IMG/VR virus record: IMGVR_UViG_3300042453_000714
Span: 1-35,555 of that record
Direction: 5' to 3' (one strand)
DNA length: 35,555 bases
From: a virus
Below the pieces are notes generated by a model. That model was not told the origin of the DNA. It made no database searches and saw nothing but the letters and a program-made list of their open reading frames with translations. This document shows, in pieces, positions 4,548 to 22,338 of the stretch (positions within the stretch are counted from its first letter, which is position 1; every line of letters begins with the position of its first letter). The translations under genes were made by a program, and so were the position numbers.

Positions 4548-5534
4548 ATGATTGTTAATCGTGATGAATGTTTGGATTTTGATGATGTTATGATCGAACC
4601 TAGGATTACTGGGATCTCTTCAAGATCCCAAGTTAATCTAGAATATGAGTATATTAACGAATCAAAAGGAATATCTTGGAAAGGAGTTCCTATTATTGCA
4701 TCTAATATGGATAAGATTGGTACAATCAAGGTTGCCAATGTATTATCTGGATACAAGATGTTGACTTTTTTACATAAATTCCACACTGTTAGAGAATTGA
4801 GAGGAAGAGATTATGATCCCGAATTTATTGGCATTTCTGCTGGGATTTCTGCTTTTGAATTTGAAAATGTTAAAGAAATATTAACCTATAATCCTAGAAT
4901 CAAATTTATCTGTTTAGATGTTGCTAATGGATATATGTTATCTTTTCAGAAAGAAGTTCGTAGATATTCTAAAGAATTTCCAGATAAGTTTATTGTAGCT
5001 GGAAATGTTGTAGAAAATTCTGGGTCTAATGCACTATTCCATTCTGGCGCAGATCTTATTAAGTGTGGGATTGGTTCTGGGGCTGTTTGTACCACAAGAG
5101 CGAAAACTGGTGTTGGTTTACCTCAATTTTCTTGTATTGATAAATCTATTGGAGTTTGGCCGAATAACTTAGATATTGTTTCTGATGGTGGATGTAAAAC
5201 ACCCGGAGATATTGCTAAAGCTTTCGGTGCTGGTGCTAAATTTGTTATGATCGGTGGAATGCTTGCTGGGCATGATGAAACTGGTACAGAAATCTATGGA
5301 ATGTCTTCCACAGAAGCGATGGACACATACTCTCTTGGATCTAAGGATTATAGAACTTCAGAAGGAAAGAGAGTCGTTCTCGAATCAAAGGGACCATTAG
5401 AAAACACAATTAAAGATATTCTTGGTGGCCTGAGATCTTCTCTTTCATATACAAATTCTGCATACATGAAAGATTTTATCGGAAAGCAGACATTTAATAT
5501 TGTTCGCAGACAGTTGAATAATTTATTCGAATAA
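4548..5534 (+). CDS. guaC: GMP reductase (IMPDH/GMPR family)
   Basis: The sequence reads as the TIM-barrel GMP reductase: DFDDVMIEP near the start, IIASNMD, CLDVANGY, then KCGIGSGAVCTTR with the catalytic Cys near residue 181, TGVGLPQ, SDGGCKTPGDI and FVMIGGMLAG. Its 328 residues match GMPR and it has no CBS domains. The Asp-Val-Ala-Asn-Gly-Tyr signature and overall length favour GMPR over IMP dehydrogenase. Reaction: GMP + NADPH to IMP + NH3. It sits 2 bases after dut, and a PRPP synthetase ends at the right edge of the window. The phage therefore appears to redirect purines, for example recycling host RNA-derived GMP. Confidence 0.88.
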   Translation: MIVNRDECLDFDDVMIEPRITGISSRSQVNLEYEYINESKGISWKGVPIIASNMDKIGTIKVANVLSGYKMLTFLHKFHTVRELRGRDYDPEFIGISAGISAFEFENVKEILTYNPRIKFICLDVANGYMLSFQKEVRRYSKEFPDKFIVAGNVVENSGSNALFHSGADLIKCGIGSGAVCTTRAKTGVGLPQFSCIDKSIGVWPNNLDIVSDGGCKTPGDIAKAFGAGAKFVMIGGMLAGHDETGTEIYGMSSTEAMDTYSLGSKDYRTSEGKRVVLESKGPLENTIKDILGGLRSSLSYTNSAYMKDFIGKQTFNIVRRQLNNLFE

Positions 5535-5535
5535 T

Positions 5536-5931
5536 ATGAAGAACGTTTTTCGTGAATTGAAATCTTGGGCAGAAGAACAAGATATAGAAGTTCAGATTGA
5601 TTCTACATATTACGAATATGCTAAAACTAAACAAGAAGATAGAATCGTAAATGGATTAGCTGGTTCCGATGGTTATATCACTCTATATGTAGATGGAAAT
5701 CGTATAGAAGAATCCTGGGATTATCTAACTTCTATGTTAATACACGAAATAGGTCATGTCCTTCTGTTTCAAGAAGGAAAGGGATGGCATACTGAGAAAC
5801 AAGCATGGATTTGTGGCATCCAGACAGTTCCGAAGAGGTTCCATCCAAAAACTCTAGAACAACATTGTATCGATTGTCTTAAAACGTACAATTACAAGAG
5901 ATTCGGATGGATTAAGAAACTCCTATCTTGA
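5536..5931 (+). CDS. Zinc-metallopeptidase-like protein (HEIGH)
   Basis: A gluzincin-like helix carries H70-E-I-G-H74. This is followed about 12 residues later by HTEKQAW, whose Glu87 could be the third zinc ligand. At 131 residues the protein is a minimal domain. A second protein at 18380-18829 shares the same layout (HEMGH then HTEMDAW), so these are paralogues. Some families of this shape are true peptidases and others are inactive zinc domains, so activity is unproven. Substrate unknown. The gene directly follows guaC by 1 base. Confidence 0.7.
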   Translation: MKNVFRELKSWAEEQDIEVQIDSTYYEYAKTKQEDRIVNGLAGSDGYITLYVDGNRIEESWDYLTSMLIHEIGHVLLFQEGKGWHTEKQAWICGIQTVPKRFHPKTLEQHCIDCLKTYNYKRFGWIKKLLS

Positions 5932-20263: not shown

Positions 20264-20464
20264 ATGATGGATAATTCTCAATTTAAAATTCAATATTATA
20301 GAACTCCAAGACAGGGTGTTAATGAATGCCCTGTCGGTGTTCGAGTAACTGACTCACTAACTGGTCTGGTTGTAGATTGTGATCGATACGATCGTCTTAT
20401 GGAAAATAGAATGACTGCGATGAAAGAACTGATTTCTGTATTGCGAGAATCAAATCAACAATAA
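20264..20464 (+). CDS. Release-factor-like mini protein lacking GGQ (66 aa)
   Basis: Residues 12-60 line up with the catalytic domain of class I release factors and ArfB-type rescue factors. YRTPRQGVN takes the place of YRTSGAGGQHVN, VRVTDSLTGLVVDC that of VRITHIPTGIVVEC, and YDRLMENRMTAMKEL that of ERSQHKNRAQAMKVL. The Gly-Gly-Gln that triggers peptidyl-tRNA hydrolysis is missing: the loop is three residues shorter and reads PRQ. It is therefore probably a non-hydrolytic ribosome or tRNA binder. It is the last gene before the structured RNA and the tmRNA, which strengthens a translation link. Two tandem ATGs start it; no strong binding site. Confidence 0.6.
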   Translation: MMDNSQFKIQYYRTPRQGVNECPVGVRVTDSLTGLVVDCDRYDRLMENRMTAMKELISVLRESNQQ

Positions 20465-20467: not shown

Positions 20468-20472
20468 GTAAC

Positions 20473-20720
20473 AGTTATCTCTATGCACGATAGACTACCT
20501 TATTGGGTAGGAACATAGCACCGTCGAAAGCCCAGAAAATAGTAGCTTGCGCAGGCGAAATTTAATAACAGGCAGCATATGAGCGGACGCAAGGACTTCG
20601 AAAATCCAAGTGCAGGTGAAATCCGACATAGAGATATTGGATATATGTTGTTTCTGGCCAGTATGTGGGATAAGGTCCACAGTAAACATATCCTAAAGAT
20701 CGCTAGCCACGATTTTGGAC
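20473..20720 (+). ncRNA. Structured RNA of unknown class
   Basis: No credible protein gene lies here. TATCTCTATG (20476-20485) pairs perfectly with CATAGAGATA (20627-20636), closing a 140-base domain. That domain contains CTACC/GGTAG and CTTGCG (20546-20551) with CGCAAG (20588-20593), plus several GAAA and TTCG turns. A second arm follows: GGATAT..GTT with AACATATCC, capped by GTGGG/TCCAC. The 3' part (ATCG-CTAGCCA-CGATTTT) could be a weak terminator. I looked for RNase P, SRP, 6S, group I and T-box signatures and found none convincing. It may be separate from the tmRNA or the 5' part of one long transcript. Confidence 0.55.
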
Positions 20721-20734
20721 AACTATATATTCAA

Positions 20735-20742
20735 TATAAATA
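20735..20742 (+). promoter_or_regulatory. T4-type late promoter of the tmRNA
   Basis: Exact TATAAATA. A late start about 6 bases after the box (about 20748) falls inside the first strand of the 11-bp helix that opens the tmRNA precursor. Confidence 0.55.
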
Positions 20743-20985
20743 AGATTGTACACAGCCAGCGGGAGTGCTTGGGATCAAATATGGTGATCAGAGGAGTATC
20801 AATACTCGACCGATAGTGATATCGGGGCTGAGGCATTCTACCATAAATAGAATGAAGGCTGTTGGAACAACAATATGGCTTCGTAAAGTTGTTTTTACTG
20901 TGTACAATACTAAATATCGATATTGAGTGATGATCTAGACTGAAAGCTTCTTGGACGTGGGAGGCAGAGCCCACCACCTCCACCA

Positions 20986-21084
20986 AAAGCGCATTGTGAG
21001 GAGCTAGTTGCATGGCAAATTCGAACAAAGTGCAACCCAAGATATAATAGTGTACATAAAAATCTTGAGCAGTGCGTTTTTGAT
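20986..21084 (+). other. tmRNA intervening segment (expected to be excised)
   Basis: The 99 bases between encoded CCA (20985) and the 5' acceptor strand (21085). AAAGCGCA (20986-20993) pairs with TGCGTTTT (21073-21080). Inside, GTTGCA/TGCAAC and CAAGAT/ATCTTG form two more hairpins. Removal would leave separate acceptor and coding RNAs held by base pairing. Confidence 0.75.
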
Positions 21085-21168
21085 GGGGGTGAAACAGATT
21101 CGACAGGATGAACTAGGAACAGGGAACTCAGTCGGAAGATGACTCCCGTAACAGCATAAACTATAAAC

Positions 21169-21201
21169 GGCAATGCAAAAGCAATGTCCATGTCTGCCTA
21201 G
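21169..21201 (+). other. tmRNA proteolysis-tag reading frame
   Basis: After the typical ATAAAC context, the frame GGC AAT GCA AAA GCA ATG TCC ATG TCT GCC TAG encodes GNAKAMSMSA, so the full tag would be Ala plus these ten residues. The stop lies in a 9-bp hairpin with a GAAA loop (21192-21213), as in tmRNA helix 5. The resume codon is Gly rather than the usual Ala, and the end is M-S-A, not A-A. Confidence 0.65.
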
Positions 21202-21256
21202 AAATAGGTAGACTGGGTTTTTCGAGATTTCTCCTGGAAACAGAATAAAATCTCAT

Positions 21257-21280
21257 AACCTCACGCAAGTGAGGTTTTTT
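21257..21280 (+). terminator. Rho-independent terminator of the tmRNA
   Basis: AACCTCAC-GCAA-GTGAGGTT followed by TTTT: an 8-bp perfect stem on a GNRA loop. It closes the RNA region and precedes an ATAAATA box (21292-21298) ahead of the ClpA-like gene. Confidence 0.9.
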
Positions 21281-21318
21281 CACGCATATCAATAAATAGA
21301 TCAAGGAGGATCATACTG

Positions 21319-22338
21319 ATGATCTTAAACTCTAAAAGCCTTTCCGGAAAAGCGAAAGAACTAGAAGATAAATTAAATGCAGTTGTTATCGGCCAAGAAG
21401 AAGCTATTAAAGAATTAGCCATAACAACACAGAAATTCTTCAATGGTCTATCAGATCCAAAAAGACCTATCACATCACTTTTCTTTGCAGGAAAGACTGG
21501 TTGTGGAAAAACGAAGGCCGCAGAAGAGTTAGCTAAATTTTTCGGTGTTGAGAAATTCTTGAAGGTTAATTGTGGAGAATTTCAACAATCACATGAGATC
21601 TCTAAGTTAATTGGTTCTCCTCCAGGATATATCGGTCACTCAGAAACAAAAGCTTTCTTCAACAAGAAGGATGTAGAAGAAACTGTTCCGAACATAATTT
21701 TATTTGATGAAGTGGAGAAGGCAACTGATTCTCTATTCCATCTGCTATTGTCTATTCTAGATAAGGGTGAGATTAAGTTAGGTAACAATGATGTGGTGAA
21801 TTTCAGAAATTGTTTCATTATTTTTACTTCGAATATTGGTGTTGAAGAAGTTGCAAAAAGATCGAAATCAATTGGTTTCGTAGAAGACAAGATAAATGAT
21901 ACCGACGAGATCGATCTATTGAATAAATCCATGAAGGCTAAGTTTCGCCCAGAATTCATGAATAGAATTGAATCTGTTATAAAGTTCAACACACTCAACA
22001 CAGATAACATGAAGAAAATTCTGGAATTAGAATTATCTCAAATTCAATATAGAATTATGTCTTCTAAACTGAATAAGAAGAAAGTCTTTTTCGTGATGTC
22101 TGATGATACTAAGACTAAACTGATTGAAGAAGGTTTTTCAGAAGAATATGGGGCGAGAAATTTAAAGAGAGTTATTTCTAAAAAGATAGAAATCCCTCTC
22201 TCATGTGTGCTTGCGGACGATAGATTAGAATCTGGTGATATTATCGAAATTAAGACTGCAGTTGGCGAAGAAGATTTGATCTTCGAAAAGGCGAAGATCA
22301 AAAGAGCGAAAACTAAGACACTTACACTAGATATCTAA
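21319..22338 (+). CDS. Single-ring ClpA-like AAA+ unfoldase with IGF loop
   Basis: The 339 residues are equivalent to only the second ATPase module of ClpA/ClpB. Walker A GKTGCGKT (58-65), pore loop GSPPGYIG (99-106), Walker B ILFDEVEK (127-134), sensor FTSN (169-172), arginine finger FRPEFMNRIE (Arg216), sensor 2 EEYGARNLKR (276-284). Between sensor 1 and the finger it has RSKSIGFVED, with IGF at 185-187. E. coli ClpA has RKSIGLIHQD at this place, the loop that docks into ClpP, while ClpB lacks it. The N domain and first ring are missing. It probably threads proteins into host ClpP. GGAGG (21305-21309) sets the start. It follows the tmRNA terminator and ends convergently with gene 46, the two stop codons overlapping. 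Confidence 0.88.
   Translation: MILNSKSLSGKAKELEDKLNAVVIGQEEAIKELAITTQKFFNGLSDPKRPITSLFFAGKTGCGKTKAAEELAKFFGVEKFLKVNCGEFQQSHEISKLIGSPPGYIGHSETKAFFNKKDVEETVPNIILFDEVEKATDSLFHLLLSILDKGEIKLGNNDVVNFRNCFIIFTSNIGVEEVAKRSKSIGFVEDKINDTDEIDLLNKSMKAKFRPEFMNRIESVIKFNTLNTDNMKKILELELSQIQYRIMSSKLNKKKVFFVMSDDTKTKLIEEGFSEEYGARNLKRVISKKIEIPLSCVLADDRLESGDIIEIKTAVGEEDLIFEKAKIKRAKTKTLTLDI

Follow-up and report, generated by a model that had tools for sequence, protein, structure and literature searches.

The 35,555-base stretch of viral DNA that we analysed in full (the window), an IMG/VR viral record representing a fragment of a genome, carries a circularly permuted tmRNA gene on its plus strand at 20922-21282. 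In our judgement the locus, taken as 20917-21282, is probably a working phage copy of the permuted ssrA gene, with a product that would be processed, would rescue stalled ribosomes and would tag protein fragments for Clp proteolysis. In the route that we propose, transcription from a T4-type late promoter would yield an RNA in which acceptor stem and spacer pair into a single long helix. Host RNA processing would then cut out the spacer; of the two pieces that stay paired with each other, the first would end near 20985 and the second would start near 21085. The host alanyl-tRNA synthetase would charge this tmRNA by way of G3-U70 and A73, and host SmpB would deliver it to stalled ribosomes; these would switch to the GNAKAMSMSA frame and stop at its end, so that ribosomes would be freed late in infection. 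The tagged fragments would likely pass to a Clp protease, possibly a phage ClpA/ClpC-like ATPase working with a phage or host ClpP.

The permuted tmRNA gene and its covarying structure

The first-pass annotation, which had read the 3' part of the tmRNA as lying 5' of the 5' part and had proposed running covariance models of the permuted families, is borne out on this order by the sequence and by the models alike. The Rfam tmRNA_permuted model (RF04321) matches 20922-21201 with 83.0 bits against a gathering score of 47 (E 1.2e-14 in 35 kb), and alpha_tmRNA (RF01849) matches 20876-21255 with 57.7 bits, above its gathering score of 50. With beta_tmRNA (RF01850) the window reaches 70.7 bits and stays below the gathering score of 84, a cut-off that the tmRNAs of two related contigs (L122 and L124) do exceed. 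The region 20910-21285 folds with a z-score of -5.68 relative to shuffled sequences, none of 100 shuffles being as good.

Run on the window, ARAGORN called no tmRNA. That the gene is seen there by covariance models only might point to a chance match or an assembly artefact; however, the E-value in 35 kb, the fold z-score and independent contigs that carry the same gene with covarying positions rule this reading out, and its probability is negligible. Divergent phage tmRNAs escape ARAGORN, as the window and the majority of its relatives show, and published counts of phage tmRNAs that are based on ARAGORN are therefore probably low.

Both pieces are placed by RF04321 and alpha_tmRNA, and all parts lie on the plus strand. 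The 3' (acceptor) piece (20917-20985, its 5' end approximate) comprises the D/P2-side strand, a T arm whose stem GTGGG/CCCAC surrounds the loop AGGCAGAG (20957-20974), the acceptor 3' strand CACCTCC (20975-20981) and an encoded ACCA (20982-20985). Beyond a 99-nt internal transcribed spacer (20986-21084), the 5' (mRNA-like) piece (21085-21256, its 3' end approximate) begins with the acceptor 5' strand GGGGGTG (21085-21091), has GATTCGACAGG right behind it, and continues through GATTCGAC and the tag frame to a terminal CCTGGAAACAGAA region. The conserved tmRNA motif GNTTCGAC, found near the start of the 5' piece, is present in the window as GATTCGAC, directly behind GGGGGTGAAACA. The piece boundaries predicted here, at 20985 and 21085, are exactly those of the first-pass annotation. 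It had also recognised a helix that closes the spacer and continues the acceptor stem, which stands, but had given it 8 bp; the ends of the spacer pair with each other and with the ACCA, and acceptor, ACCA and spacer together form a longer helix, in which 22 of 23 positions pair and the only mismatch is a C-A within the ACCA.

The tag frame (21169-21201, plus strand) reads GGC AAT GCA AAA GCA ATG TCC ATG TCT GCC TAG and encodes GNAKAMSMSA*. Fold prediction places a 9-bp hairpin over its stop codon (21192-21213) and a terminator-like hairpin, ACCTCACGCAAGTGAGGTTTTTT (21258-21281), at the close of the tmRNA unit, where it aligns with the final helix of beta_tmRNA.

Searching with the gene downstream of the tmRNA recovered seven related contigs, and a wider search for the Clp protein using an alignment returned the same seven. 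They hold four versions of the locus (close copies in L122/L123, then L124/L125, L126, and L127/L128), and in every one of the seven a permuted tmRNA scores above cut-off. A 7-bp acceptor stem with G3-U70, A73 and CCA, the alanine identity elements, is present in the window and in each relative examined. The stem has been rebuilt in three ways (CACCUCC/GGGGGUG, CUCAUCC/GGGUGAG and CAGGUCC/GGGCCUG), each fully paired, and G3-U70 and ACCA are constant across all three. Sequences of the T stem and of the spacer helix vary among the relatives with pairing largely retained. The spacer itself measures 99 nt in the window, 31 in L122, 33 in L124 and 85 in L126. In the family the T arm combines a 5-bp stem with a 7-nt loop. 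The T loop of the window has 8 bases (AGGCAGAG) and is not of the UUCGANN kind, and the loops of L124 and L126 have 7 nt; the T stem around them is kept and covaries. Such compensatory changes, seen in the acceptor stem, the T stem and the helix of the spacer, are direct evidence of selection on the RNA. As a separate observation, one relative (L126) has a gene resembling an HNH-type homing endonuclease inserted directly upstream of its tmRNA, at about 4988-5647.

A tag frame with its stop is found in all relatives examined: L122 and L123 encode the same GNAKAMSMSA* as the window, L124 encodes VNTNVMAMSAAA and L126 ANTNVLVMSAAA, the latter two retaining the ending -AAA*. The -SA end of the window's tag, in place of -AA, is uncommon, most ARAGORN-called permuted phage tags among the matches listed ending in AA, and a few others among these matches also have no final AA.

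Could the gene be a functionless host ssrA copy, either recently captured or a decaying remnant? The tag and T loop of the window depart from the usual pattern, ARAGORN rejects the gene, and a 174-nt insert lies ahead of it, all of which would fit such a history. Against it stand the compensatory changes in all three helices (acceptor, T stem and spacer), a constant G3-U70 and intact tag frames across relatives with Clp proteins 74-79% identical to that of the window, and two exact tmRNA patterns found no match in bacterial genome contigs; we consider this explanation improbable. SmpB, which was not found in any of the eight contigs (window and relatives), the -SA tag end, the 8-base T loop and the silence of ARAGORN likewise count against a working tmRNA. 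Nevertheless, the comparative evidence argues strongly for a working phage tmRNA, probably processed into two pieces, charged with alanine and served by the SmpB of the host.

Promoter box and candidate structured RNAs upstream of the gene

The octamer TATAAATA, the core of T4-type late promoters, immediately precedes the tmRNA in L122, L123 and L124, and AATAAATA is found there in L126 and L127. In the window it occupies 20735-20742 on the plus strand and is separated from the tmRNA by the insert. Over the whole window TATAAATA is not enriched (5 found, 4.3 expected), and the argument therefore rests on its conserved position and not on its count. Among the genes of the window is one for gp55, the late sigma factor. 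Together, the conserved box and the terminator-like hairpin suggest that the tmRNA is expressed late, in contrast to the early expression proposed for the tmRNA of phage Melnitz.

The 174-nt insert (20743-20916, plus strand) is a candidate structured RNA in the leader of the pre-tmRNA. An 11-bp inverted repeat (20745-20755 and 20899-20909) closes it, and it folds into several hairpins (z -4.83); it is absent from L122 and L123 and has no exact-pattern match elsewhere in IMG/VR. The start at 20745 given in the first-pass annotation was thus too early, the insert being a separate element that the relatives lack. Immediately upstream of the promoter box, 20469-20734 on the same strand is a second candidate structured non-coding RNA, whose 3' half (about 20633-20734) forms a long closing helix with compensatory changes: among its 37 predicted pairs, compared across three sequences, two have changed on both sides and several on one. 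Its counterpart in L122 spans about 5384-5658 and agrees with it base for base in the 5' part, which L123 lacks. Neither RNA matches an Rfam family at E values up to 5; further copies of 20469-20734 were found in the nearest relative only, and of the insert none were found. Our guess is that the two RNAs, as leaders of the pre-tmRNA, could control its processing or amount.

Further upstream, the plus strand of the window encodes a 66-aa protein (20264-20464) that resembles domain 3, the catalytic domain, of release factors and has no GGQ motif (PF00472, 26.5 bits, below the cut-off of 35; phrog_20323, E 3.8e-8). PF00472-like matches also occur in four contigs (G001, G005, G006 and G007), and a similar small protein lacking GGQ is encoded upstream of the tmRNA in L126, L127 and L128.

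The neighbouring Clp unfoldase and the possible fate of tagged products

Downstream of the tmRNA, the window encodes a single-ring AAA+ unfoldase of the ClpA/ClpC type with 339 aa (21319-22338, plus strand; PF07724, 6.5e-36; PF10431, 9.8e-16). It resembles the second ring of ClpA, ClpB and ClpC, and its match to phrog_4871 covers only the second-ring half of that family (452-760 of 764); the N-terminal domain and the two AAA rings that define ClpA and ClpC proper are not present in it. It does have AAA_2 and D2-small domains; aligned with ClpC, it shows an I-G-F motif where the ClpP-docking loop lies, and this motif is invariant in the unfoldases of the relatives. A hydrophobic docking loop of the form I/L/V-G-F/L, carried by ClpC and ClpA, marks the AAA+ unfoldases that partner ClpP (ClpA/ClpC/ClpX type), and the I-G-F motif of the phage protein may be used for the same purpose. 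The AlphaFold model of the protein was poor (mean pLDDT 41) and was left out of the analysis.

The Clp ATPase gene is found 0-2 kb downstream of the tmRNA in all seven related contigs, and in five of them the tmRNA ends directly before it; in L124 and L125 a glycosyltransferase-like stretch lies between the two. ClpP is encoded in three of the eight contigs, and comparison with solved ClpP structures shows the catalytic residues Ser, His and Asp at their positions. One contig whose Clp ATPase is identical to that of the window (G001) encodes ClpP, and none is encoded within the window fragment. Because the same three ClpP-encoding contigs carry a separate gp21-type S77 prohead protease, their ClpP is unlikely to serve as the capsid protease.

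In T4-like phages, gene neighbours often stay together for other reasons. Among 20 other virus records with ARAGORN-called permuted tmRNA loci, no Clp ATPase of the window's kind was found and ClpP was found in two, so that a general link between tmRNA and Clp across phages is not seen; the pairing is therefore a feature of a single lineage and not a rule. In two contigs that look like other T4-like phages, a ClpP-like gene follows a permuted tmRNA at a distance of about 1.2 kb (L110, 1577-2134; L118, 634-1218), and L110 has a likely gp32 gene near it.

From the position of the gene, the I-G-F motif and the ClpP of the relatives, we hypothesize that tagged products are handed to the phage Clp ATPase. 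A more far-reaching version, which we put forward tentatively and hold to be possible although on the unlikely side, is that this lineage runs a nearly self-contained system of tagging and destruction, in which a late, permuted tmRNA adds an altered tag that is read by the phage single-ring Clp together with phage ClpP. If this were the case, the choice of stalled products to be degraded late in infection would lie with the virus and not with the host.

An alternative explanation is that the phage RNA acts mainly as a decoy or regulator, either competing with the host tmRNA for SmpB or, through its -MSA tag, sparing rescued phage proteins from host ClpXP. GNAKAMSMSA is without the final AA typical of most phage tags among the matches listed, and there is a precedent in phage DS6A, whose tag-less tmRNA inhibits the endogenous tmRNA (PMC11915505). 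However, a few other phage tags among these matches also have no final AA, the relatives keep -AAA*, and the Clp ATPase is conserved next door; we regard a role mainly as decoy or regulator as rather unlikely. Loci that look like tag-less tmRNAs of the DS6A kind occur in other contigs: L002 (at 1209), L029 and L046 have a tmRNA-like 5' motif with CACCTCCACCA about 66 bases on, and a T arm precedes CACCTCCACCA.

The role of permuted phage tmRNAs has been a matter of speculation in the papers considered here. A lineage that combines a tmRNA with a ClpP-type unfoldase and with ClpP in one phage makes a role in tagging for degradation, one of those proposed, directly testable.

Phage identity, origin and known systems

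The claim in the first-pass annotation that a T4-like phage carries the permuted tmRNA agrees with the gene content: the window encodes T4-like proteins (gp43 DNA polymerase, UvsX, a gp41-type helicase, gp46/47 and gp55, along with an RNA ligase of the tail-fibre-attachment family), and its relatives encode gp21 and a gp23-like capsid protein. By gp43 the closest deposited phages are cyanomyoviruses at about 50% identity, and the window therefore belongs to a distant T4-like lineage. A distant blastn search of the region against deposited phages gave just one 23-base match. Two relatives also carry a tRNA with a CUA anticodon (L144, 4146-4220; L149, 11387-11461), which ARAGORN labels tRNA-Pyl and which is likely a suppressor tRNA; reassignment of the stop codon was considered and rejected, TAG still terminating some long open reading frames in the window and in most relatives.

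The belief that phage tmRNAs are one-piece, which made a permuted gene in such a phage appear unusual at first, does not hold. The Methylophilales phage Melnitz, which is lytic, of the T4 type and infects marine OM43, has a two-piece tmRNA that was published in 2022; by the count of the same paper 53 of 133 unique phage tmRNA structures were two-piece, 50 of those 53 coming from marine or aquatic phages (PMC9004378). Our own scan of IMG/VR with a generic tmRNA motif yielded at least 59 loci that ARAGORN called permuted. A two-piece phage tmRNA is thus not new, and the gene in the window is a divergent addition to a known type.

The initial reading had suggested that the gene was captured from, or had adapted to, a host of a group with permuted ssrA. 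For an alphaproteobacterial host this is plausible: the window scores above the cut-off of the alpha model, and its T loop (AGGCAGAG) and that of L126 (GGCGGAA) look like the alpha consensus. On the other hand, L122 and L124 pass the beta cut-off, and the search with two exact tmRNA patterns gave no bacterial match.

With the tmRNAs of the Rfam families RF04321, RF01849 and RF01850, the gene of the window shares gene order, tRNA-like domain and tag frame, and it differs from them in its divergent T loop, its 99-nt spacer and its -MSA tag end. In common with the ssrA of Melnitz and the Pelagibacter phages (PMC9004378), it is permuted, is carried by a lytic aquatic myophage of the T4 type and has an alpha-like character. 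The setting of the gene is different: in Melnitz ssrA lies upstream of the late transcription coactivator and is accompanied by a glutamine riboswitch (PMC9004378), whereas in the window it lies upstream of the ClpA/ClpC-like ATPase and no riboswitch family matches. Jumbo phages such as Sinorhizobium phage AP-J-162 have a tmRNA and several Clp genes in one genome (PMC11242549). In the part of that account available to us no link between tmRNA and Clp is stated, whereas in the seven contigs related to the window the Clp ATPase adjoins the tmRNA or lies within 2 kb of it. The resemblance to bacterial ClpAP and ClpCP extends to the AAA_2 and D2-small domains, the I-G-F at the docking-loop position and the catalytic triad of the relatives' ClpP; in contrast to the bacterial ATPases, the phage unfoldase has a single AAA ring, with neither N domain nor first ring, and its gene adjoins that of a tmRNA.
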